Part shown: piece after piece, positions 485 through 12,115 of the stretch
Numbering within the stretch: position 1 is the stretch's first letter
Layout: each line of letters opens with the position of its first letter
Assembly: GCA_937911965.1 (NCBI GenBank)
Contig: CALDPL010000387.1
Span: forward strand, 1-12,115
Direction of reading: 5' to 3'
Origin: an uncultured Allomuricauda sp.
GTDB lineage: Bacteria > Bacteroidota > Bacteroidia > Flavobacteriales > Flavobacteriaceae
DNA length: 12,115 bases
Made by a program: the position numbers and the translations under genes
The notes under the pieces: generated by a model
The model's input: the letters and a program-made list of their open reading frames with translations, nothing else
The model's database searches: none
Told to the model about the DNA's origin: nothing

Positions 485-534
485 CAAAAAATCCTCAACG
501 ACTCCCATGGAATCCATGGATTTTGCGAGGATTT
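485..534 (-). terminator. Terminator-like hairpin in the greA leader, possible attenuator
   Basis: On the minus strand AAATCCTC (534-527) pairs perfectly with GAGGATTT (496-489), and the 3' arm continues into a run of six T (491-486), as in an intrinsic terminator. The loop holds two CCATGG palindromes that can pair with each other as an inner stem. No minus-strand gene lies upstream that needs terminating, because the neighbour is a plus-strand gene. The hairpin therefore sits inside the greA leader, between the candidate promoter and the ATG. E. coli greA is known to have a leader terminator that releases short GraL RNAs, and this may be a functional analogue. On the plus strand no T-run follows. 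Confidence 0.5.
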
Positions 535-538
535 AACG

Positions 539-546
539 CAAATATA
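539..546 (-). promoter_or_regulatory. Candidate greA promoter, -7 element
   Basis: The minus strand reads TATATTTG, an exact match to the Bacteroidetes -7 consensus TAnnTTTG. The -33 element is poor: the nearest TTG lies only 13 nt upstream, where 17-23 nt is usual. Transcription would start near 531-534, about 120 nt before the greA ATG and exactly at the 5' arm of the hairpin at 489-534. Support is the motif and its position only. Confidence 0.45.
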
Positions 547-594
547 AGCAATTTTTGTTCAACTTTGCCACCAAATTGCCCTGAAAAGACAAAG

Positions 595-1032
595 ATGAAG
601 CACTTTCTGGTCCCGGCCCTGCTGTCGATCGTATTCTCCTGTAGTTCTGATAGAACCAACAGAAACCCCTACCTCCAGGAAGTCGGGTTCGCCTTTGAAT
701 TGAACCTCGGCCTCCCCCTATACAGCAATCTGAACTCCATAGGCAATCCCATATATGTGGGCAATACCGGGGTGGGCACCCGCGGGATCTTTGTGATGAA
801 GTCCGGCCTGGACAGCTTTTACGCCTTTGAGGCCAGCTGCCCCAACCATGTCCCCAACGACTGTTCCACCATGGAACTGGACGGACAGAACGTGGTCTGT
901 TCCTGTGAAGGGTATGCCTATAGCCTGTTCACCGGCCAACAATTGGACCGGCCCGACGATGGGGGACGCTACTACGACCTGCTTTTCTATAGGGCCACCC
1001 TTAGGGGAAACTCCGTTATCGTATCGAACTGA
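595..1032 (+). CDS. Rieske-like lipoprotein with altered cluster ligands
   Basis: This is a 145-residue predicted lipoprotein. I chose the ATG at 595 because it gives a compact signal peptide, MKHFLVPALLSIVFS, followed by Cys16 in a loose lipobox. The frame is open further upstream (to 523), but that extension has no signal and would overlap the greA leader hairpin. The C-terminal half resembles the Rieske ferredoxin fold: CPNH at 82-85, Cys90, then CSCEGY at 102-107 followed by the typical SLFTGQ. Canonical Rieske proteins use CxH and CxxH. Here the first site is C-P-N-H and the second C-S-C-E, so the second histidine is missing. It may hold an altered cluster, a disulfide, or nothing. It is likely attached to the periplasmic face of a membrane. 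The stop codon directly abuts that of the convergent oxidoreductase gene. I recognise the family type but no symbol or substrate. Confidence 0.82.
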   Translation: MKHFLVPALLSIVFSCSSDRTNRNPYLQEVGFAFELNLGLPLYSNLNSIGNPIYVGNTGVGTRGIFVMKSGLDSFYAFEASCPNHVPNDCSTMELDGQNVVCSCEGYAYSLFTGQQLDRPDDGGRYYDLLFYRATLRGNSVIVSN

Positions 1033-2067: not shown

Positions 2068-4239
2068 TTAAAAATCCAGGGTCAGGCCCAATAAAAAGTT
2101 GATTCCCGCCTGTGGATAATACCCCGCCCCTTCCACGGTGGTAATGCTGCCCGGATCCGAAAAATCATCATCATAGGTATAGAAATACCCATTGGACACT
2201 ATATCGGCATCAAAAATATTGTTCACCAGGGCCGAGAGGACAATGCGCTTGACAAAGGAGTTGGCCTCCAGGGCGTATTGCACATTGAAATCGGTCTGGG
2301 AATAACCCTTTAAAACGGAACCTTCGGAATCTATGTTCCCCATATACTGCTTGCCCACAAATTTGGACAAAAGTGAAAACTGTAGGTTTTCCTTGGGCCG
2401 GAACCCGATGATATTGCCCGCCACCAACTGTGGGGAGTAGGCGATATGGGTATTGCCCAAGTTTTGGAGTTCCCCGTCCCGTTGAAAAAGGAAATCGAGG
2501 TTGCGGTTGTCGCTCAGGGCGATGTTCGGCCCCCAAGTGAACTTCCGGCCCAATTGGACCTGGGCATCCAGTTCCAGGCCCAGACGGTAGCTGTCCCCCA
2601 CATTGGCCCTTAAGGGGGCCCCCACATCATTGAGGTCCCCGGTGAGCACCAATTGGTCCTTATAGCGCATATAGTACACGTTGGAGTTCAATTGGAAGGA
2701 AGGGGAGACATAGCGCCACCCCAGCTCAAAATCACTGAGGCGTTCGGGTTTGGGACTGCCGCTTTCATAATCGTTCCGATTGGGTTCCCTATGGGCCATG
2801 GCATAGGAAAAATAGAAGTTGTTGTTGGGGTCCATATTGAAACTCACCCCTGCCTTGGGATTGAAAAAAGAGAAACGGTCGTCCACCAAACCGGTGTCCT
2901 CCCCATTGGCCTTATAGCCCACCCCTCGGTATTGCAGGTCCCCGAACACAGACCATCGGCCATCCAAACGATACTTGGCCTTGGCATAGAGGTTAAAGTC
3001 ATTCTTATCGGAATCATCCTCATAATAGCGGTCCCGGATTTCACTGTCCCCTGCGTACCGGGCCCAGATGATTTCCCCGAAATGGTCTCCCCGATATTGG
3101 TTGTACCCCCCTCCGAAGATCAGGTCCAATCGTTCCCCCTGCCTGTTCAGGGAAAAGACCGTCCCATAGAAATCATTGTCCAGCCAGCGCCTGCGTATCA
3201 AATCCGTGGTTTCCACAAGCCCACCCTCCAAAGGGATGGGCTCCAAGCCGTAGTCCTCCAAAGGGTCGTCTTCCCGGAACTGTTCAAAGTAGCCCCTGCC
3301 CCGGGTATAGTGCAGGGCCAGATTGCCGCTCCAACCCGAGCCCAGTTCATGGTCCCAGTGCAGTTGGAAGTGGTCCTGCTTATACTGGTCCACCTCCCGC
3401 TCATAAAATTGGACCTGCCCGCTTTCATCGGTATACCTCCCCGCTGAGTTATAGGTCCTGTCTTCCTCCATTTCCTCTGCGGTGACCCCGTTCCAGGCCT
3501 GGTAGGTCTGTTGTCCCCCTCCGAAGAGCAGGGCCTTGATCGAACCTTTGCCCCCCGTATAGGTCCCTTGGAGAAAATACCCGTCCAGGTCCGAAGCGGC
3601 ACGGTCCACATAGCCGTCCGATTTGATCCGCGACAACCTCCCATCCAGCACAAAATGGTCGTTCAAAAGGCCGGTACTGAATTTCACATGGTTGCGCAGG
3701 GTGGCAAAACTCCCCACAGAGGAGGAAAGTTGCACATAGGCCTCTTGGGAAACCGCATCGGTGAGCAGGTTCAGACTGGCCCCGAAGGCCGCCGCCCCAT
3801 TGGTGGAAGTACCCACCCCCCTTTGCAATTGCAGGCTTTGGGTGGAGGAGGAAAAATCGGGAAGGTTCACCCAAAAGGTCCCCTGGGATTCCGCGTCGTT
3901 ATAGGGGACCCCGTTGATCGTCACGTTCACCCGGGTGGCATCCGATCCGCGGACCCGGATCGAGGTATAGCCCACCCCGGCCCCGGCATCCGATGTGGTC
4001 ACCACCGCCGGCATGAAATTCATCAAAATGGGGACGTCCTGCCCCAGGTTCCTGGAGGACATCTCCTGTTGATCCAAATTTGAAAAGGTAATGGGAAACT
4101 CCTTGGTCACCCGTATGGCCCGGACCAGTACCTCGTCCAGTTCCACTTTTGATCCCACAAGGGAATCGATGGGTTTCTCCTGTGCACTCCCACAGAGCGC
4201 CAGCCCACTGAGGGCAATAGTTGTGAATAAAGTTTTCAT
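2068..4239 (-). CDS. TonB-dependent outer-membrane receptor, probable thiamin/TPP or precursor importer
   Basis: A 723-residue outer-membrane receptor. The ATG at 4239 is preferred over a TTG seven codons upstream because it starts directly with a signal peptide, MKTLFTTIALSGLALCGSA, cleaved before Gln20. There is no N-terminal carboxypeptidase-like domain, so it is not SusC-type. A DEVLV segment near residues 37-41 may be the TonB box. The plug follows, with IRVRGSDATRVNVTINGVPYND, an invariant-type plug signature, then QRGVGTSTNGAAAFGASLNL. The remainder is a 22-strand-type beta barrel ending in the expected C-terminal Phe (GLTLDF). The class would normally be called a siderophore or vitamin receptor. 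The TPP riboswitch in its leader is the decisive clue: THI-box-controlled TonB receptors of Bacteroidetes have been predicted as thiamin-related importers by comparative genomics. The exact ligand (thiamin, TPP, HMP) is inferred. Confidence 0.93.
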   Translation of the reverse strand: MKTLFTTIALSGLALCGSAQEKPIDSLVGSKVELDEVLVRAIRVTKEFPITFSNLDQQEMSSRNLGQDVPILMNFMPAVVTTSDAGAGVGYTSIRVRGSDATRVNVTINGVPYNDAESQGTFWVNLPDFSSSTQSLQLQRGVGTSTNGAAAFGASLNLLTDAVSQEAYVQLSSSVGSFATLRNHVKFSTGLLNDHFVLDGRLSRIKSDGYVDRAASDLDGYFLQGTYTGGKGSIKALLFGGGQQTYQAWNGVTAEEMEEDRTYNSAGRYTDESGQVQFYEREVDQYKQDHFQLHWDHELGSGWSGNLALHYTRGRGYFEQFREDDPLEDYGLEPIPLEGGLVETTDLIRRRWLDNDFYGTVFSLNRQGERLDLIFGGGYNQYRGDHFGEIIWARYAGDSEIRDRYYEDDSDKNDFNLYAKAKYRLDGRWSVFGDLQYRGVGYKANGEDTGLVDDRFSFFNPKAGVSFNMDPNNNFYFSYAMAHREPNRNDYESGSPKPERLSDFELGWRYVSPSFQLNSNVYYMRYKDQLVLTGDLNDVGAPLRANVGDSYRLGLELDAQVQLGRKFTWGPNIALSDNRNLDFLFQRDGELQNLGNTHIAYSPQLVAGNIIGFRPKENLQFSLLSKFVGKQYMGNIDSEGSVLKGYSQTDFNVQYALEANSFVKRIVLSALVNNIFDADIVSNGYFYTYDDDFSDPGSITTVEGAGYYPQAGINFLLGLTLDF

Positions 4240-4257
4240 CCGTAAAATGGTTACGAA

Positions 4258-4267
4258 CAAAAGGGGT
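4258..4267 (-). promoter_or_regulatory. Possible switching strand of the TPP riboswitch
   Basis: The leader carries ACCCCTTTTG about 20-30 nt before the receptor ATG. Its ACCCCTTT is fully complementary to AAAGGGGT in the 5' strand of the aptamer (4401-4408). Without TPP this pairing could form and open the aptamer; with TPP it would be released. No T-run follows the aptamer, so control at translation is more likely than an intrinsic terminator. This rests on complementarity only. Confidence 0.35.
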
Positions 4268-4335
4268 CATTATTCTTGTTGTAAATTGATTTTTGTTTCT
4301 ATAGAAACCTTGAATTTCCATGACGCGCCTTTGCG

Positions 4336-4413
4336 CATTCCCTTGGCGGCATTACCCGCCCAGGTTCATTGGGTATAATCTCAGCCTTTTTTGAAAAAGC
4401 ACCCCTTTGAGAT
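4336..4413 (-). promoter_or_regulatory. TPP (THI-box) riboswitch
   Basis: The minus strand contains all conserved blocks of the thiamin pyrophosphate aptamer in order: AAAGGGGTGC, the P3 hairpin CTTTTT/AAAAAG, GGCTGAGATTATACCC, GAACCTG, a GGCGG/CCGCC stem around GGTAATGCC, and AAGGGAA. The CTGAGA bulge recognises the pyrimidine of TPP, and the helix around GGTAATGCC with its neighbouring loop contacts the pyrophosphate. The match to the E. coli thiM-type core is essentially complete. It lies in the leader of the TonB receptor gene, some 100 nt from its ATG, and presumably lowers expression of receptor and oxidoreductase when TPP is plentiful. Downstream there is a small GCGC-AAAG-GCGC hairpin and a GTTTCTATAGAAAC palindrome but no intrinsic terminator. 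Confidence 0.96.
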
Positions 4414-4417
4414 GGGA

Positions 4418-4515: not shown

Positions 4516-6960
4516 ATGGATCGACAGCCCAAGTCCAAAAAGAGGTTCACCTTCAACATCATAAGCAGTTATGTGGTCCTTGGAGGCCTGGCCGTATTGG
4601 CCGCCTTTTTCATCTATGGGGAGTTCAAGGACTACACGGCGGCACAGGACACCCAAGGGGAGCGGGACAAATTGCTTAGGACCAATAAGCTCCTCACCCA
4701 ACTCTACGAGGCGGAGAACAGCTCTAGGCGGGCCCTGCAGACCAAAAACAACTTGGACCTCCAGGCCTATGTACAGCGTGTGGACTCCATCAATATACTG
4801 ATCGATTCCCTCAAGCCGCTCACCCTGGAGGACAACGGGATCCGAACTGCCCTGGACAGTGTGCAGGAACTGTTGCAACACAAGGTCCAAAACAATGCGG
4901 AACTGAGAAAACTCAGGGTGCAGGTAGACAATAGGGGCACCTACGATTCCGTCCTGGAGGCCATCCACAAAATGGAGGTGGATTTGGGACGGATCACCCC
5001 CAAGGCCCTGGCCCCGGATTTCGACAAATTGCCCCCATCGGTCCAAAAGCCCATTCAGGATTATGTGGCCTTTCTCAACCAAAACATCCCCGAAACCGAT
5101 GGAACGGTCGCCGCCAAGAACATCGATTCCATTCTGGAGCTGTCCAGATCCATCCTGAACCGGGCCAAATCCGAAACGGCCGCCATCGAACGCTCCATGA
5201 TGCAAAAAGAGCTTCAAATCCACAGGACGGACCTGGAGCTCTCCCAAAAAATAAGGAACGTCATTTCTGGTTTTGAAAATCAAATGATCCAAAATGCCTA
5301 TCTGGACAACCTCAAGCAAGAGGAGGCACTAGGGAGAAGTACCCGCTTGGCTGCCGCTGCCATCCTACTGGGAATCTTGATCGTCATCAGTTTCACTTTT
5401 TTGATCTCAAGGGACTATTGGAAGGCCCAACAGTACAGGGAACAGTTGGAAAAGGAGAAGAAATATTCCGAGTTCCTCCTCAAGAGCCGGGAACAATTGA
5501 TATCCACGGTCAGCCATGACCTGAGGACCCCTTTGACAACCATAGGGGGATACAGTGAACTGATGCAGCACAGTGGGCTGAACGACAAACAGCACAGTTA
5601 TCTGCAGATGGTCAAATCCGCCAGTGGCTATGTGGAAAAACTGGTCAACGAGCTCTTGGACTACTCCAAATTGGAGGCCGGAAAAATGAAACTCGAAAAA
5701 TTGCCATTCGTGCTTTCCAACCTCATCCGGGAGACCGCCATGAACTTTGGGGAGGTAAGTCCCAAAAAAGAGGTGGAACTTATCCTTGACATCGACCCGG
5801 TCCTGGAGCGGCCCATTCTGAGCGACCCTTTTCGAATCAGACAGATTTTGACCAACTTGGTGGGCAATGCCTTTAAGTTCACCCAAGAGGGCCATGTCAC
5901 GATATCCGCCCGACTGGAGGAAAAAGAAGATCGGTCCTGGATCCGAATCCGCATAAAGGACACCGGCATAGGGATAAAACCCGAAAAAAGGGAACTCATC
6001 TTTCAAGAGTTTGCCCAAGGCGGGGAGTCCACCCAAAAGAAGTACGGAGGCTATGGCCTGGGACTCACCATTTCCAAAAAGCTGACCGAGCTTCTCGGGG
6101 GCAGCCTTTTTCTGGAACCCGGGCAAGGGCAGGGCAGTACCTTCACCTTTAGGATTCCCGTACAATTTGCGGAAATCCCCTCCAACCGGCCCAATGAGAC
6201 CGTCCCCCTGGGTCCCCTGGAGCTTTATGTGATCGACGACGACCCCACCCTATTGGAGCTTCTAAGGGAAATCTGCAGGATCAACGACATAAAAATCAGG
6301 ACCTACACCGGCTTCAAGGAACTCCAAAAGGAAGGGATCCCAAAACCCGATCTGGTACTGACCGATATGCAAATGCCTGAAATCGATGGCTTCGAGGTAT
6401 TGAAAAAACTCAGGGACATGGGGTATGAAAACCCGGTGATCGCCATGACCGGCCAAAAGATAAGGGAACCCATGGACTATACCCGGGCCGGGTTCAGTGC
6501 CGTCCTGCAAAAACCTTTTTCCAGTACCGCCTTCCTCCAACTCCTGGGCCAAGCCCATGAAACGGAGGCACGACCCTCCCCGACCACAGCCTTTCCGGCT
6601 ACGGGATCGACGCACTTCGATATCACGGACCTCTCCTGCTTTTTGGACGGTCCCCGTGCCTTGGAGGAAATCCTGGAGACCTTTTTGGGGAATACCCGTC
6701 AGAACCTCGAGCAGCTCCTTGAACATATTGAAAAGGGCAGATTGGACGGAATTCGGGACATTGCCCATAAAATGCTGCCCATGTTCCGACAATTGGAGGT
6801 CCGGGAATGCGTTCCCATTCTGGAGGAACTGGAACGGCTGCCCGATGGGACGGACCCAAAGAAATACACTACTTTGATCTCAGAACTCAAGACCGGGGTG
6901 GGCTCCCTACTTGTCGCCGTGGAGGACTATATGATCAGACTTCGAGTCGATATTGATTGA
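4516..6960 (+). CDS. Hybrid sensor histidine kinase with receiver and HPt domains
   Basis: An 814-residue inner-membrane hybrid kinase. TM1 spans about residues 13-34 and TM2 about 278-297. Between them is a roughly 240-residue, mostly helical periplasmic sensor resembling CHASE3-type helical sensors but not confidently assignable. The cytoplasmic part has HisKA with STVSHDLRTPL (phospho-accepting His334) and an HATPase domain with N box Asn447/Asn451, DTGIGI from Asp482, and GGYGLGLTIS from Gly511. A receiver domain follows with DDD near 574-576, Asp617 in LTDMQMPEIDG, and the KPF lysine near 660. The C-terminal HPt-like domain has His751 in DIAHKMLP. Phosphate should flow His334 to Asp617 to His751, then to an external receiver. 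The convergent sigma-54 activator gene, whose 3' end overlaps by 26 nt, is the obvious partner. The signal sensed is unknown. Confidence 0.95.
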   Translation: MDRQPKSKKRFTFNIISSYVVLGGLAVLAAFFIYGEFKDYTAAQDTQGERDKLLRTNKLLTQLYEAENSSRRALQTKNNLDLQAYVQRVDSINILIDSLKPLTLEDNGIRTALDSVQELLQHKVQNNAELRKLRVQVDNRGTYDSVLEAIHKMEVDLGRITPKALAPDFDKLPPSVQKPIQDYVAFLNQNIPETDGTVAAKNIDSILELSRSILNRAKSETAAIERSMMQKELQIHRTDLELSQKIRNVISGFENQMIQNAYLDNLKQEEALGRSTRLAAAAILLGILIVISFTFLISRDYWKAQQYREQLEKEKKYSEFLLKSREQLISTVSHDLRTPLTTIGGYSELMQHSGLNDKQHSYLQMVKSASGYVEKLVNELLDYSKLEAGKMKLEKLPFVLSNLIRETAMNFGEVSPKKEVELILDIDPVLERPILSDPFRIRQILTNLVGNAFKFTQEGHVTISARLEEKEDRSWIRIRIKDTGIGIKPEKRELIFQEFAQGGESTQKKYGGYGLGLTISKKLTELLGGSLFLEPGQGQGSTFTFRIPVQFAEIPSNRPNETVPLGPLELYVIDDDPTLLELLREICRINDIKIRTYTGFKELQKEGIPKPDLVLTDMQMPEIDGFEVLKKLRDMGYENPVIAMTGQKIREPMDYTRAGFSAVLQKPFSSTAFLQLLGQAHETEARPSPTTAFPATGSTHFDITDLSCFLDGPRALEEILETFLGNTRQNLEQLLEHIEKGRLDGIRDIAHKMLPMFRQLEVRECVPILEELERLPDGTDPKKYTTLISELKTGVGSLLVAVEDYMIRLRVDID

Positions 6961-8275
6961 TCTTGTTGTACAGGGTCTTTCGGGTGATCTGCAAGAGTTC
7001 GGCCGCCTTGCTCTTGTTGAAATTCGTTTGTTTCAAGGCATTGAGAATCCTGTCCCGTTCATATTCCGCCTTGGAGAATTGGGAGCTCATCTCCCGGGCG
7101 GGACCTTGGGCCACCTCCTTGGACAGCGCCTCGGGCAACACCCTGTCCCCCTGGGTGAAGAGCAGGGCCCTTTTGACCACATTCTTCATCTCCCTGAGAT
7201 TGCCTGGCCAGGAATAGTCCATCAACAATTGCTTGGTTTCTTCGGAAAATTCCAACACTTCCCGTCCCAGCTCCGCATTGGCCCGCTCCAGAAAGAAATT
7301 GGCAAAAAGAAGGATGTCCTCCCGCCGCTCCCGAAGGGCGGGCACATGGATGGTGAACTCGTTGAGCCTGTGGTACAGGTCCTCCCGGAATTCCCCCTGT
7401 TCCACGGCTTCCAGAAGGTTTTCGTTGGTGGCGGCAATGATCCTCAGGTCCAATTGGATCTCCTTGGTACTACCCACCCTTTTGATCTTTCGCTCCTGTA
7501 TGGCACGCAGCAGTTGTATCTGGTGCTGATAGGAAAGATTTCCCACCTCGTCCAAAAAGAGGGTGCCCCCATTGGCCGCCTCAAAATGGCCGATCTTGTC
7601 CTCAATGGCCCCGGTAAAACTCCCCTTTACATGGCCAAAGAATTCCGAAGTGGCGATCTCTTTTGGGATGGCCCCACAGTCCACGGCCACAAAAGACCGC
7701 CCTTTTCTGCTGCTGCCCTTGTGGATGGAATGTGCCGTGACCTCCTTGCCCGTACCACTTTCCCCGGTCAAAAGTACCGACATATTGGTAGGGGCCACCA
7801 ATTCCACGTACTGCAGCAATTTCTTGGAGCTCTCACTCTCGCCCAACAGAAAATCATCACTCCGATTTCGATTGGGAAGCGGTTTGGGCTCGGGAGAAAC
7901 TACTTCTTTGGATTGTCCGATACTCAGGGCATTGTTGATCACGCTCAACATCTCTTCCGGGGTAAAGGGCTTGGAGATATAGTCGAAGGCCCCCTTTTTC
8001 ATGGCGCTGACGGCCGTTTTTACCTCGGCATAGCCCGTCATCAAAATGACCTGGGTGGCCGGGGACTGTTTTTTGACCTGCGGGAGCAGGGTCACCCCAT
8101 TCCCCTTGGGAAGCCGCACATCAGAAAGGATGACCTCAAAGGTGGAGGCCTCCAATTGGGACTCCGCTTCTTGGATCGAATAGGCCGAGGACACATCAAA
8201 GCCCTGCCTGGCCAAAAACTTTTGCAGCATTTGACAGAAAGCGGTATCGTCCTCAATGATCAAGATTTTGGGCAT
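6935..8275 (-). CDS. Sigma-54-dependent response regulator, NtrC/AtoC type
   Basis: A 446-residue transcription activator. I use the ATG at 8275 (MPKILIIEDD); the open frame extends upstream to 8377, but that would read through the terminator hairpin of the preceding gene and adds no domain. The receiver (1-120) has Glu8/Asp9/Asp10, phospho-acceptor Asp52 in LSDVRLP, Thr80 and Lys102. The AAA+ domain has Walker A GESGTGKE (171-178), the sigma-54-contacting loop GSFTGA (218-223, Ser replacing the first Ala, a frequent variant) and Walker B FLDEV (240-244). A Fis-type helix-turn-helix ends the protein (KSKAAELLQITRKTLYNKI). Once phosphorylated it should oligomerise and drive sigma-54 promoters. 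It is convergent with its likely kinase. The PepSY-like gene just upstream, with a candidate sigma-54 promoter, is a plausible target. Confidence 0.96.
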   Translation of the reverse strand: MPKILIIEDDTAFCQMLQKFLARQGFDVSSAYSIQEAESQLEASTFEVILSDVRLPKGNGVTLLPQVKKQSPATQVILMTGYAEVKTAVSAMKKGAFDYISKPFTPEEMLSVINNALSIGQSKEVVSPEPKPLPNRNRSDDFLLGESESSKKLLQYVELVAPTNMSVLLTGESGTGKEVTAHSIHKGSSRKGRSFVAVDCGAIPKEIATSEFFGHVKGSFTGAIEDKIGHFEAANGGTLFLDEVGNLSYQHQIQLLRAIQERKIKRVGSTKEIQLDLRIIAATNENLLEAVEQGEFREDLYHRLNEFTIHVPALRERREDILLFANFFLERANAELGREVLEFSEETKQLLMDYSWPGNLREMKNVVKRALLFTQGDRVLPEALSKEVAQGPAREMSSQFSKAEYERDRILNALKQTNFNKSKAAELLQITRKTLYNKINQYRLEV

Positions 8276-8340
8276 ATCTATGGCATCTAATATACGATAC
8301 CAAAAGATGGTTTGTCCAAGGAACATCCATAAAACTATCT

Positions 8341-8373
8341 TAAAAAGAGAAGGGGCCGCTTTCGCGACCCCTG
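8341..8373 (-). terminator. Intrinsic terminator after the PepSY-like gene
   Basis: The minus strand reads GGGGTCGC, a GAAA tetraloop, GCGGCCCC, then TTCTCTTTTT. The eight-pair stem has one G-U pair. It lies 50 nt past the PepSY-like stop and 66 nt before the response-regulator ATG, so the two genes are mostly transcribed separately, with read-through possible. Confidence 0.85.
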
Positions 8374-8378
8374 ACAAA

Positions 8379-8398
8379 CCAAACCAACTAACCTAACC
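8379..8398 (-). other. Four GG runs, possible two-layer G-quadruplex in a 3' UTR
   Basis: Between the PepSY-like stop and its terminator the minus strand reads GGTTAGGTTAGTTGGTTTGG, with GG pairs separated by 3, 6 and 3 nt and no C. Such a strand could fold into a weak two-tetrad quadruplex in RNA. Function is unknown and chance is possible. Confidence 0.3.
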
Positions 8399-8422
8399 TG
8401 GTTTAGAAAACCATTCCCTAAT

Positions 8423-8725
8423 TTATATTTCAATCCAGTTGCCTTCGGCATCGGCATAGACCGTACCGGTGGTTCCATCCTCTAGGGAAAGTTCCAATTT
8501 GTACTGATCCTGGTCATTTTTGTATGCCTTGTCCACCTTGGCAGTGGGATAATCATTGGCCACTGCGGTACTTACCGCTTGGGGAAGATCGGAAACACTG
8601 ATTTCCTCAAAATCCTGGACAACTGTTATGATGGGATCATCCATTTTCAACTCGGTGGATTCTACATTGGCGAAAGCTGTAAGTCCGATAAAGGACAATG
8701 CGGTTGCAAAAACTAACTTTTTCAT
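8423..8725 (-). CDS. Small secreted PepSY-like protein
   Basis: A 100-residue protein with a clear signal peptide, MKKLVFATALSFIGLTAFA, cut before Asn20. It has an acidic mature part. Residues about 45-100 (LPQAVSTAVANDYPTAKVDKA ... YKLELSLEDGTTGTVYADAEGNW) fit the PepSY-like fold common in Bacteroidetes: a helix with the AVxxxYPxAKVxKA pattern, then paired strands ending in DxxGNWxE/I. These proteins are periplasmic or surface exposed; the molecular role is unknown, with peptidase inhibition or envelope-stress buffering proposed for relatives. The gene has its own terminator and a candidate sigma-54 promoter, and sits next to a sigma-54 activator gene, so it is a likely regulon member. Confidence 0.88.
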   Translation of the reverse strand: MKKLVFATALSFIGLTAFANVESTELKMDDPIITVVQDFEEISVSDLPQAVSTAVANDYPTAKVDKAYKNDQDQYKLELSLEDGTTGTVYADAEGNWIEI

Positions 8726-8941: not shown

Positions 8942-8990
8942 GACCGACCATATCGATCGATCAGCCTGACTCACCCCTGATGGGTCGGCT
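8942..8990 (-). terminator. Inverted repeat at the end of the DUF4301 operon, weak terminator
   Basis: CCGACC (plus, 8944-8949) pairs with GGTCGG (8983-8988), with a nested ATCAG/CTGAT and an ATCGATCGAT palindrome inside. It spans the DUF4301 stop codon. No T-run follows on the minus strand, so if it ends transcription it is not a classical intrinsic terminator. Confidence 0.3.
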
Positions 8991-10509
8991 TCAAAAGATC
9001 GTTGACCGTCTTTACCGGATTGAAGGTGATCAAGGGCACTTCCACAAAAATGGTGTTCCAAAAGGCCATGGCCCCGTTCCAGAGCCCAGGGAGTTCCAGG
9101 GCCTTAAGTTCCCTTCCCTCTTGGGTCTTGCCGGTGATGAATCCCTGTTTGTGGTCCACAAAATCCAAAAGGTCGTACTTCTCCCCTTTGTGATTGCGGA
9201 TTCCACAGACCAGGTCCACCGGATTGAAATGGGTCGAGTTCCGTAGAATGGCCCGTTGTTGGGGGTTGTTTAGATCGATCTGTGCGGATTCGATGATCTG
9301 TAGGGAAATGTTCCCTTGGGCATCCTCCACCCAAAAAGGGCCTCCCCCGGGTTCCCCCTCGTTCTTGACCATCCCACAGACCCGAATGGGCCTGTTGATC
9401 TTGTCCAAGAGCAACTTCCTCTGCTCCTCCAAATCCCCTTCTTCTTTTTGAGCCGGGAGTTTTACATTCAGGCTTTTCTCCACAAAGGACTGGATTTCAT
9501 CGAGCTGCTCCGGGGAAACCTCCCCTCCCTCCAACAATTTGGCATAGCCAAAGGCCCGGTCCTGCACCTTCAAGAGGACACCGGCCAACATTTTCTTGCT
9601 TTCGGCCACGACCTCCAAGTCCTGGTCCACCACCACATTGTCGATGTTCTTGATAAATACGATATCGGCCTGTATCTCGTTCAGGTTCTCGATCAGGGCG
9701 CCATGGCCCCCCGGACGGAACAATAGAGATCCGTCCCCGTTGCGGAAGGGTTCATTGTTCAGGTCCACGGCCAGGGTATCGGTAGAGGGTTTTTGACTGG
9801 AATAGGAAATGTCGAAGCGGGTGTCGCTCTCCATGGATATCTTGGGCACCGCCCGGTCCTCCTCTTCCCTGAACAGATCCCCATGTTGCTCCGATACCGT
9901 GAAATGCAAACGGGCAAGACCCTGGTGGCTTGCGTACAGGGCCGCTTCCTTCAAATGCTCCTCAAAAGGGGTGGCCACCTGGTCCCCATAGCTGTGAAAG
10001 GGCAAAAGCCCTTTGGGAAGGAACCCATAATTGAGTCCCTGTGGCGATAACAGTTCCTTGACGAACAGGTAGCGTTGCCCATCCCTGGTCCCGGCCTTTC
10101 CCCCGATCCTTTGCATGATGGTTCCATAAAAGGGAAAACTGTCCATTTGTTGCACAAACCTTTCGACCTCGTGATCCCCACTGCGGTCCACATAGGAGGA
10201 GACCCGCTCCCTTTGGGGGTCATAGGCCTCCAAAAAGGTGAACAGGGCCTTGAACATTCTCGAGGCCGCCCCGGAGGCCGGTACGAATTTCAAAAGATCG
10301 AGTGCTTCAGCACGGGCCTCAAAGATTTCGATGAGTTCTTGCCGTTCCTTTGGATCAAACCTCAAGATTCCTTGGCCCACCACGGCCGCCGCCTGCAATC
10401 GGACGTGGGGAATGCCCGCTTTGAAGGTCTCGATCTGATCGAGCACCCGTTTCTTTGAAATACCCATGGAAGCCATTTGCTCCAAGTCCTTCGAGTCGAA
10501 TTCCACCAT
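8971..10509 (-). CDS. DUF4301 family protein, nucleotidyltransferase-like
   Basis: A 512-residue protein that I recognise as DUF4301, a Bacteroidetes family without an assigned reaction. It has no signal peptide or membrane segment. Its conserved blocks look like those of sugar-nucleotide pyrophosphorylases. FVPASGAASRMFK (75-87) resembles the glycine-rich NTP-binding loop with its Arg. LPKGLLPFH (164-172) resembles the substrate-site PK-x-L-x-P block. PGGHGAL (266-272) and IKNIDN (286-291) closely mimic the PGGHGD and NxDN elements of UDP-sugar pyrophosphorylases, the last Asp being a usual metal ligand. The ATG follows the kinase stop by one nucleotide (TAA-a-ATG), so it is translationally coupled as the last gene of the operon. 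Nucleotidyl transfer downstream of the kinase is inference. Confidence 0.9.
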   Translation of the reverse strand: MVEFDSKDLEQMASMGISKKRVLDQIETFKAGIPHVRLQAAAVVGQGILRFDPKERQELIEIFEARAEALDLLKFVPASGAASRMFKALFTFLEAYDPQRERVSSYVDRSGDHEVERFVQQMDSFPFYGTIMQRIGGKAGTRDGQRYLFVKELLSPQGLNYGFLPKGLLPFHSYGDQVATPFEEHLKEAALYASHQGLARLHFTVSEQHGDLFREEEDRAVPKISMESDTRFDISYSSQKPSTDTLAVDLNNEPFRNGDGSLLFRPGGHGALIENLNEIQADIVFIKNIDNVVVDQDLEVVAESKKMLAGVLLKVQDRAFGYAKLLEGGEVSPEQLDEIQSFVEKSLNVKLPAQKEEGDLEEQRKLLLDKINRPIRVCGMVKNEGEPGGGPFWVEDAQGNISLQIIESAQIDLNNPQQRAILRNSTHFNPVDLVCGIRNHKGEKYDLLDFVDHKQGFITGKTQEGRELKALELPGLWNGAMAFWNTIFVEVPLITFNPVKTVNDLLKPTHQG

Positions 10510-10510
10510 T

Positions 10511-11068
10511 TTAAAGGAGTTTATCTATTGCTGATATAGCCCGGGCGAGCCGCGTTGGCTTATCCCCCCTTAAAATAATAAAATTTCGATCATATTGTTC
10601 CAAGGAGGCCTTGAAATATTCAAACATCTGCTTGCGCTCATCGGGTTTGTCCCGAAGATCGTCGGCCACCCAGGGTGTGTCGATATAGGTCAATAGATAG
10701 AGGTCGTATTGATTCTTAAGGGCATAACGCTCCAAAAGGGGATCGCAGGTCCCTGTATAATAGGTCTCGGAATATACCTTGGTTTCCAAAAGGTCGGTGT
10801 CACAGATCAGAATCCCCTTGGCCGTTTTGGCCAATTCGTTCTCCAGGCGCATCTGTCCATAGGCTATGGGCAACAAATCTTTGGGTTCGCAGGTCTTTTG
10901 CTCCCGGTCCCATTTGTCCTGTAGGTATTCCCGGGCATATTCCGGGACCCATTCGGTTTGGTAATGTTCGGCCAATTGTTGGGCCAAGGTGGTCTTCCCC
11001 GTGGATTCCGGTCCGAACAGGACTACTTTGACGAGGTTTGAAGGCTGCTGCCCAAGCTTTTCTTCCAT
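10511..11068 (-). CDS. NadR-like P-loop kinase (ribosylnicotinamide- or thiamin-type)
   Basis: A 185-residue ATPase matching the kinase domain of NadR without NadR's repressor or adenylyltransferase domains. Walker A is GPESTGKT (19-26). VPEYARE (41-47), DTD (90-92) and LRDKPDER in the lid region all follow the NadR ribosylnicotinamide-kinase pattern. Such kinases phosphorylate vitamin nucleosides taken up by PnuC-type carriers and so trap them. I place the start at the ATG at 11068, 18 residues before the P-loop; this makes a 46-nt out-of-frame overlap with the transporter gene. The stop lies one nucleotide before the DUF4301 ATG. Substrate is uncertain: nicotinamide riboside by family, thiamin by genomic context. 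Confidence 0.88.
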   Translation of the reverse strand: MEEKLGQQPSNLVKVVLFGPESTGKTTLAQQLAEHYQTEWVPEYAREYLQDKWDREQKTCEPKDLLPIAYGQMRLENELAKTAKGILICDTDLLETKVYSETYYTGTCDPLLERYALKNQYDLYLLTYIDTPWVADDLRDKPDERKQMFEYFKASLEQYDRNFIILRGDKPTRLARAISAIDKLL

Positions 11069-11664
11069 GCTAAATATCCCTGAATTGCCAAGACTGTGAA
11101 GATGAGGTACTGCAAGGAGAACATGCCCCATCCCCGATAGGCGTACAAAGGTACGGTTATTATGTCCCCTATGATCCACAGGGTCCAGTTTTCCAATTTC
11201 TTATTGGCCATATACCACATCCCGGTAAAGAAAATACCGGAGGTCAGGATGTCCACATAATTGCTTGCCCCGATTTCCGTCCCAAAGATCCGGTACACCC
11301 CGTAGGTTACCCCAATGGTGAGCAGGAACAGCCCAAAGCCGATCCATTTCTCCCTGGCATTGGTGCGGGTGATCTTGACGACCGGATTCCGGTCCTCCTT
11401 CCTTCGGGCCCAGTTCCACCAGCCGTAAATGCTCATGATGGAAAAATAGAAGTTCAGCATCATATCCCCGAGGAGCCGGTCCACAAAAAAGATATAGACC
11501 GTGATGGCCGTGGCCACCAGGCCGGTGGGATAGACCAAAATGTCCTCCCGTTTGGCATAGACCACGGAGGCTATCCCAAAGAAGAAAGCGGTCGCCTCCA
11601 GAATGATCAGGGACAATTCCCGATCCCGGTAGGGCCCCAGAAAAAACTCAAAAATGGGGTTCAT
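11023..11664 (-). CDS. PnuC-family vitamin transporter, possibly thiamin-type PnuT
   Basis: A 213-residue inner-membrane protein with about seven membrane helices. Family marks are SIYGWWNWARR (78-87) carrying the aromatic WNW motif and, near the C-terminus, ENWTLWIIGDIITVPLYAYRG, the conserved NWxxW...D...PLY helix. PnuC carriers are facilitators without an ATPase and depend on phosphorylation of the substrate inside, which fits the kinase gene that overlaps its end. PnuC members carry nicotinamide riboside, while the related PnuT carries thiamin. The thiamine-binding protein gene overlapping the start by 17 nt and the TPP-riboswitch receptor 7 kb away favour thiamin, but sequence alone does not settle it, so no symbol is given. 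Confidence 0.92.
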   Translation of the reverse strand: MNPIFEFFLGPYRDRELSLIILEATAFFFGIASVVYAKREDILVYPTGLVATAITVYIFFVDRLLGDMMLNFYFSIMSIYGWWNWARRKEDRNPVVKITRTNAREKWIGFGLFLLTIGVTYGVYRIFGTEIGASNYVDILTSGIFFTGMWYMANKKLENWTLWIIGDIITVPLYAYRGWGMFSLQYLIFTVLAIQGYLAWKKSLGSSLQTSSK

Positions 11665-11908
11665 AACCGCTTCGGTCCGATTTCACGATTTTTAAGGTGA
11701 GCACCACATGGTCCAGGGAATCGAAGGCTTCCTTGATCTGGACGTTCAAAAGCTCCATCACCCGATCATAGGGTCCGAACACCTGGGTACTGAGGGGATT
11801 TTCCAAAACGGTAAGGCCCGAGGCCCGCAGTTTTTGGATAAAGTCGATGATCGGAGGTTCAAAATCGTCCTGTAAAGGGCTCAAGGTAAGGTCAACGGAT
11901 ATTTCCAT
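11648..11908 (-). CDS. Thiamine-binding protein, DUF77/YkoF-like (MTH1187 family)
   Basis: An 86-residue cytoplasmic protein with one ferredoxin-like domain. The family pattern is clear: MEISVDLTLSPL at the first strand, a helix with IIDFIQKLRASGL, then the hallmark NPLSTQVFGPYDRVMELL (37-54), and a final strand HVVLTLKIVKSD. Relatives such as YkoF bind thiamin or its HMP part; single-domain members form tetramers. There is no signal peptide, so it is not a periplasmic carrier and may sense, buffer or hand over the vitamin inside the cell. It is the first gene of the operon, and its 3' end overlaps the transporter start by 17 nt, implying coupled translation. Confidence 0.85.
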   Translation of the reverse strand: MEISVDLTLSPLQDDFEPPIIDFIQKLRASGLTVLENPLSTQVFGPYDRVMELLNVQIKEAFDSLDHVVLTLKIVKSDRSGYEPHF

Positions 11909-11945: not shown

Positions 11946-12115
11946 CTAACCCCCCATCATTTTAAGGGCGTATACACAAGTAAAGCCCTCAAACTCCATA
12001 AATTCCACCTCGTATTGGGACTTTTTGCCCTTGTACAGAATCTCCAGCGCCTCGCGGTTGTAGCGAGCACCGTTACACACTTCACATGGCACAAACACGT
12101 CCGGCAGGAAGTGCA
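11946..12115 (-). pseudogene. UvrA fragment joined to an unrelated C-terminus, probable misjoin
   Basis: The minus-strand frame enters from the window edge as [21 protein letters not shown], continuing to LYKGK. This is the second zinc-binding region of excinuclease subunit UvrA, including its CxxC. UvrA should continue for about 150-200 residues (ISEVLDMT-type text). Instead, near position 12024, the frame reads [25 protein letters not shown] and stops at 11946. The last segment looks like the C-terminus of a small beta-rich protein, faintly like DUF4926 in YEVEF, but I cannot name it. The UvrA part also uses CGC, GCT and GGT codons unlike the nearby genes. Either an assembly chimera or a broken gene. 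Confidence 0.6.

Follow-up and report, generated by a model that had tools for sequence, protein, structure and literature searches.

Gene content of the locus

The window analyzed here is a stretch of 12,115 nucleotides (nt) from an uncultured Allomuricauda sp. of the Flavobacteriaceae (positions 1 to 12,115 of contig CALDPL010000387.1, assembly GCA_937911965.1). It carries adjoining genes for a Thiamine_BP-type protein (TBP), a PnuC-family facilitator, a NadR-like kinase and a DUF4301 protein, together with a thiamin pyrophosphate (TPP) riboswitch and a TonB-dependent receptor. Their reading as a thiamin module is well supported, and the kinase is a candidate for the formation of thiamin monophosphate. 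The features are as follows.

11648..11908, minus strand: TBP, Thiamine_BP PF01910 type, 86 amino acids (Pfam and PDB profile matches)
11023..11664, minus strand: PnuC-family facilitator (PF04973), read as PnuT, with thiamin assigned from context alone
10511..11068, minus strand: NadR-like kinase (AAA_28) of 185 amino acids without the nicotinamide mononucleotide (NMN) adenylyltransferase domain, proposed thiamin kinase (Pfam, NCBIfam and PDB)
8971..10509, minus strand: DUF4301 protein, 512 amino acids, predicted UDP-sugar pyrophosphorylase fold (PF14134, AlphaFold2 [AF2] and Foldseek)
4322..4416, minus strand: aptamer of a TPP riboswitch that lacks the P3 arm of the Rfam model (RF00059 and our own covariance model)
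2068..4260, minus strand: TonB-dependent outer-membrane receptor, proposed thiamin receptor (PF00593 and PF07715)

The four adjoining genes are tightly packed: the kinase ATG at 11068 gives a 46-nt overlap with the PnuC gene, the PnuC and TBP genes overlap by 17 nt, and a single nucleotide separates the kinase from DUF4301. A first-pass annotation, made from the sequence alone, had described four genes with these overlaps and this gap, and the open reading frame coordinates and Pfam matches agree with it. Its genes stand, but the module extends beyond them, since the TPP riboswitch and the TonB receptor at 2068-4416 are part of it and had been overlooked.

The domain matches also fit the roles of binder, facilitator and kinase assigned at that time. 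The TBP scored 24.5 bits against PF01910 (Pfam cut-off, 24.9), a family corresponding to the former DUF77, and a TBP profile of 27 rows matched Thiamine_BP-type structures in the PDB: 2ibo at E = 7e-6, MJ1052 at E = 6e-4 and YkoF, only weakly, at E = 0.011. YkoF binds thiamin. The PnuC gene matched NMN_transporter (PF04973; 170.5 bits, E = 4.3e-50), and its profile matched the PnuC structure 4qtn (E = 6e-20). The kinase matched AAA_28 (PF13521; 152.5 bits, E = 1.5e-44) and the NadR chains of the PDB (E = 8e-28 to 3e-15). Its match to the NCBIfam model TIGR01526 covered only positions 164-319 of 325, at 118.4 bits (cut-off, 341.15), and was limited to the ribosylnicotinamide kinase part, in line with the earlier statement that the NMN adenylyltransferase domain is missing.

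TPP riboswitch and TonB-dependent receptor

At standard Rfam thresholds, no TPP riboswitch was found in the window or in eight loci. A permissive Rfam search placed RF00059 at 4322-4416 on the minus strand, at 49.9 bits (gathering threshold, 54.3; E = 5.7e-9 on a 401-base stretch). With our own covariance model (R1), trained on ten TPP riboswitches from related genomes, each scoring above the Rfam cut-off, the window aptamer reached 45.0 bits (E = 6.9e-9). The model gave 61 matches at E ≤ 0.1 across the window and a comparison set of 80 loci fetched by DUF4301 (L001-L080). The count of matches before the receptor is confined to the 66 loci with an identified receptor gene: 58 of them had a match ahead of that gene, at distances of -57 to 276 nt relative to the called start. 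The other eight (L021, L023, L037, L038, L047, L056, L074 and L077) gave no match with this model; all of them have the core word CTGAGA upstream, which is weak evidence. The window receptor carries PF00593 and PF07715 (Pfam), and its translation more likely starts at an ATG 21 nt inside the called frame.

Because the TPP riboswitch lies before the receptor in the window and in 58 of 66 loci, the salvaged vitamin is most likely thiamin rather than nicotinamide riboside (NR), two substrates between which the first-pass annotation had left the choice open. Two further matches lie away from the receptor, in L030 and L055. The L030 match arises by construction, this locus being from the same genome as the training sequence L082. 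Locus L140 of the L030 genome presents PnuC-kinase-DUF4301, after which come a TPP riboswitch of 75.6 bits and genes that carry ThiC, TMP-TENI and Phos_pyr_kin (ThiD-type) domains. In L055, DUF4301 is followed by the TPP match and a ThiC-like frame, named by eye.

Conservation of the gene order in relatives

The order TBP-PnuC-kinase-DUF4301 is repeated in relatives, often with identical overlaps (e.g., L001 and L005), which supports the earlier view that these genes are made together as a vitamin salvage module. In the majority of the 80 loci, DUF4301 comes after the TBP, PnuC and kinase genes and before a TonB receptor homolog on the same strand. An upstream flank made of a PPTase gene and a gene that is presumably ahcY is kept in 66 of the 67 loci with a full upstream flank, 36 of which also have pcrB (the names PPTase and PcrB were taken from Pfam in L140). 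The right edge of the window corresponds to the C-terminal end of relatives' PPTase (at most 81% identity over the last 37 residues), and the usual flank is thus present. The edge frame at 11957-12115 (minus strand) ends like PPTase and begins with residues that resemble UvrA by eye, perhaps a chimeric contig end.

Five loci without PnuC still have DUF4301 at its usual place beside the flank. Since the unit keeps a general flank and DUF4301 stays in place without PnuC, part of the adjacency reflects general conservation of gene order. The unit is intact in L080, the sole locus of the 67 without the usual flank, and this speaks for some tie among the genes.

The kinase and the thiamin monophosphate step

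ThiL requires thiamin monophosphate as its substrate. It scored above the cut-off in all 24 genomes of DUF4301 loci, where thiamin pyrophosphokinase (TPK) was found anywhere in only 3. We also searched a separate sample of 198 Bacteroidota genomes, 17 of which matched the kinase profile at more than 230 bits: the 10 with a separate kinase gene have ThiL (>300 bits) and no TPK, and the 7 with a kinase-DUF4301 fusion have TPK. The association of fusion with TPK is not strict, since the genome of the fused locus L012 (G004, outside the sample) lacks TPK.

PF02581 (ThiE/TenI) was absent from 21 of 42 genomes searched, the 42 having been chosen for DUF4301 or the kinase. Three of these 21 have TPK (G019, G021 and G166), and the other 18, also devoid of TPK, all have both ThiL and the NadR-like kinase (18/18). 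Since ThiL needs thiamin monophosphate, a thiamin kinase should exist in these 18 genomes, and the NadR-like kinase is the best candidate for this step. Four of the 42 genomes have no kinase in the locus (G019, G022, G108 and G178), and each of them has ThiE or TPK. From sequence and gene content, the NadR-like kinase is likely to be a thiamin kinase that makes thiamin monophosphate. No paper on such a kinase was among the literature matches listed, which mostly leave out subscription journals.

Predicted fold and conservation of DUF4301

The DUF4301 protein matched PF14134 (E = 1.3e-217). Its AF2 model (pLDDT of 93.6) has a fold of the UDP-sugar pyrophosphorylase type (Foldseek, VIA), and structural alignments gave 17% identity with yeast Ugp1p (2i5k) and 13% with human AGX2 (1jvg). 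The window protein scored 17.2 bits against UDPGP (PF01704), under the cut-off of 22. In the structure alignment (A4), whose 84 rows were hand-picked from L001-L080 and from 240 proteins among the matches listed, 39 rows matched PF01704 at E ≤ 1 (best, 1.3e-5). The assignment of DUF4301 to a predicted pyrophosphorylase fold is well supported and consistent with its earlier description as nucleotidyltransferase-like. It shares this predicted fold with the UDP-glucose and UDP-GlcNAc pyrophosphorylases (UDPGP) and forms a Pfam family of its own.

Pyrophosphorylases carry a glycine-rich loop at the position where DUF4301 shows the near-invariant stretch PASGAA(S/T)RMF. Its near-invariant columns also include N-x-D-N and PVK motifs. 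Eighty-one columns were conserved both in 94 module-clade rows (the 93 of the tree clade described below and L116) and in 16 outer rows (15 standalone sample genes and L072), and one column was specific to the former. For DUF4301, the literature matches listed, again mostly without subscription journals, held one passing mention and no functional paper.

The possibility that DUF4301 replaces GalU or UDPGP was considered and not retained: PF01704 was above its cut-off in 5 of the 198 genomes, none with DUF4301, and the galU model left the matter undecided, since it matched loosely in all 198 genomes and above its cut-off in 3 and is thus uninformative on such a substitution. By these same counts, a UDP-glucose-forming enzyme is not obvious for most of the 198 Bacteroidota.

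Distribution, phylogeny and fusions of DUF4301

DUF4301 was present in 32 of the 198 genomes, beside PnuC and the kinase in 14, beside PnuC without the kinase in 2 (L105 and L109) and apart from both in 16. For these assignments, the flanks of 30 were first read close to the gene, and the standalone ones and the remaining two were reread with wider stretches. The first-pass annotation had held that a DUF4301 found mostly apart from these genes would refute its proposal; exactly half of the genomes show it apart. Among the 16 standalone genomes, ThiC is absent from all and a PnuC match from 10, and six have TPK and no PnuC, no ThiC and no ThiL above the cut-off. A scan of 15 proteins neighboring standalone DUF4301 genes revealed carboxyltransferase with LamB/YcsF, cation efflux, STAS with SpoIIE, and NifU, with no common pathway. 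Reciprocally, 3 of the 17 kinase genomes lack DUF4301 (G053, G112 and G131); their PnuC and kinase genes are paired, TBP was seen in two, and in one a TPP match of 37 bits lies downstream of the kinase. Since ThiL is present in all 24 genomes of DUF4301 loci and in the 10 genomes with a separate kinase, TPP can be completed without DUF4301. With half of the DUF4301 genes apart, PnuC-kinase pairs that lack it and ThiL being sufficient, the nucleotidylated vitamin that had been proposed as the end product is not upheld.

In a quick tree of 110 DUF4301 rows, which gave long-branch warnings, 93 rows grouped together (SH-aLRT, 99): 70 from the module, 14 fused, 3 beside PnuC without kinase and 6 without the module, the last from genomes without any PnuC match. 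One module row, L116, fell outside this clade, with an unsure placement. The tree omits L140 and L082-L090, as well as L044, in which the reading frame is interrupted, L095, which is the L001 gene again, and L139, where the match is split. In L044 (8001-9541), which is from a complete genome, DUF4301 and the regulator gene are each split over two frames, perhaps by sequencing errors or decay.

The kinase and DUF4301 are fused into a single open reading frame in L002, L007, L012, L013, L064, L066 and L078 (start cut), in seven genomes of the sample (L101-L104, L106, L107 and L117) and in 22 of 120 proteins among the matches listed. These fusions are moderate evidence of a functional tie, because two coupled genes can readily fuse by losing the stop codon that separates them. 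A tie of DUF4301 to de novo thiamin synthesis was rejected: ThiC was present in 9 of the 32 DUF4301 genomes and in none of the 16 with a standalone gene, compared with 67 of the whole set of 198. ThiC lies about 14 to 22 kb from DUF4301 on the same contig in G045, G049, G092, G178, G194 and G198.

Comparison with known systems

The accessible part of PMC5613172 describes Bacteroides thiamin transport operons (OMthi-PnuT-Tnr3) with a TPP riboswitch, a TonB-dependent outer-membrane receptor and PnuT. The module resembles them in its riboswitch, TonB receptor and PnuC-family carrier. Unlike these operons as presented there, it has a NadR-like kinase at the position of Tnr3 and no TPK beside the carrier, it adds the TBP gene and DUF4301, and its riboswitch lies before the receptor only (PMC5613172). 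Salvage of NR by PnuC and NadR, according to the accessible part of PMC7221760, proceeds by facilitated diffusion followed by phosphorylation trapping. The module shares the homologous carrier and kinase domain with that system but differs from it in that its kinase has no NMN adenylyltransferase domain, its receptor is linked to a TPP riboswitch and a Thiamine_BP-type protein is encoded as well (PMC7221760).

Proposed function and alternative readings

We consider it probable that these genes form a thiamin salvage system and that DUF4301 is adjacent to it, with a function outside thiamin salvage. The TonB-dependent receptor, presumably shut off by TPP via the riboswitch, would carry thiamin across the outer membrane, PnuT would allow its diffusion through the inner membrane and TBP may bind it in the cytosol. 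The NadR-like kinase would then trap it by forming thiamin monophosphate, and ThiL, whose gene lies outside the module, would convert this to TPP. DUF4301 would most likely transfer a nucleotide to a sugar phosphate or a similar substrate outside this pathway, and its place beside the module would stem from ancestral gene order and from translational coupling; the evidence does not support an action on the vitamin. The gene order, the riboswitch match, the predicted fold and the patterns of co-occurrence are direct observations, from which every substrate, the position of TBP in the pathway and the sense of the regulation are inferred.

Several observations weigh against this proposal. The riboswitch precedes the receptor and not TBP-PnuC-kinase, and the 18/18 kinase count is partly built into the choice of the 42 genomes, which makes it a consistency test and not an unbiased survey. 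Moreover, the search around the thiamin monophosphate step covered ThiE/TenI, TPK, ThiL and the NadR-like kinase, a range that does not extend to other, unrelated thiamin kinases, and the ThiL, ThiE and TPK counts come from related genomes and not from that of the window. A functional tie of DUF4301 to the module is favored by its position beside PnuC in all three loci without kinase (L062, L105 and L109) and by the fusions, which recur in different parts of the tree. The same genes could alternatively salvage NR: PnuC would let it in, a ribosylnicotinamide kinase would phosphorylate it, and DUF4301 or NadD would complete NAD. The kinase and PnuC do match NadR and PnuC models and structures, and the invariant kinase residues agree with the NadR alignment without a clear change at the substrate site (the accessible part of PMC7221760 gave no usable list of NR-site residues). 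This reading is nevertheless unlikely, and we rejected NR as the substrate on the TPP riboswitch ahead of the linked receptor and the thiamin gene context, with a thi operon adjoining the module in L140; a Thiamine_BP-type protein is also encoded within the operon, and the presence of the kinase fits the missing ThiE and TPK.

DUF4301 itself could join a nucleotide to phosphorylated thiamin, or remove it, for storage, signaling or an extra route to TPP. Its predicted nucleotidyltransferase fold, its translational coupling to the kinase and the several distinct fusions of the two, the three kinase-less loci and the whole unit in L080 are compatible with such an activity, which we regard as improbable, if the least so of the alternatives, given the 16 of 32 genomes with DUF4301 apart (PnuC being absent from 10 of them), its persistence beside the usual flank in five PnuC-less loci and the PnuC-kinase pairs without it in G053, G112 and G131. 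In addition, the same core is conserved in module and standalone settings, and the six standalone genomes without ThiL above the cut-off have no dedicated thiamin monophosphate step. A more specific version, in which the kinase and DUF4301 make up a NadR-like two-step machine with an unrelated pyrophosphorylase-type second half yielding nucleotidylated thiamin, seems very unlikely. Among the literature matches listed on nucleotidylated thiamin (15 of 3,140) and on flavobacterial thiamin, no paper dealt with a function of DUF4301 or with a NadR-like thiamin kinase. Fusion and coupling to the kinase, and PASGAA(S/T)RMF in place of the glycine-rich loop, could instead point to a non-catalytic sensor of nucleotide sugars or nucleotides that tunes the kinase. 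This is unlikely as well, since the 81 near-invariant columns with N-x-D-N and PVK resemble an active enzyme and standalone DUF4301 genes exist.

Neighboring genes

Between the aptamer and DUF4301 (4516-8725), the window encodes a hybrid histidine kinase (plus strand) and a sigma-54-type response regulator (minus strand) with a 26-nt tail-to-tail overlap, beside a PepSY-like gene. In 19 of the 80 loci, the gene after DUF4301 encodes a response regulator of this kind, accompanied by one to three small PepSY-like genes and, in those that extend far enough, by a hybrid histidine kinase on the opposite strand, an arrangement like that of the window. Two Flavo-1 RNAs lie near the module in L064 (1110-1193 and 5328-5406). 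A lipoprotein-like frame of 169 amino acids at 523-1032 (plus strand) of the window has a Rieske-like Cys-His pattern by eye and no Pfam match.

Implications

For DUF4301, the analysis provides a predicted fold and an idea for an assay, namely nucleotidyl transfer from nucleoside triphosphates to phosphate substrates. If the proposed role of the kinase is right, a NadR-type kinase would have been re-used as a thiamin kinase in flavobacteria with no apparent route of their own to thiamin monophosphate, and its gene would be a testable candidate for a step to which none of the other families searched could be assigned.

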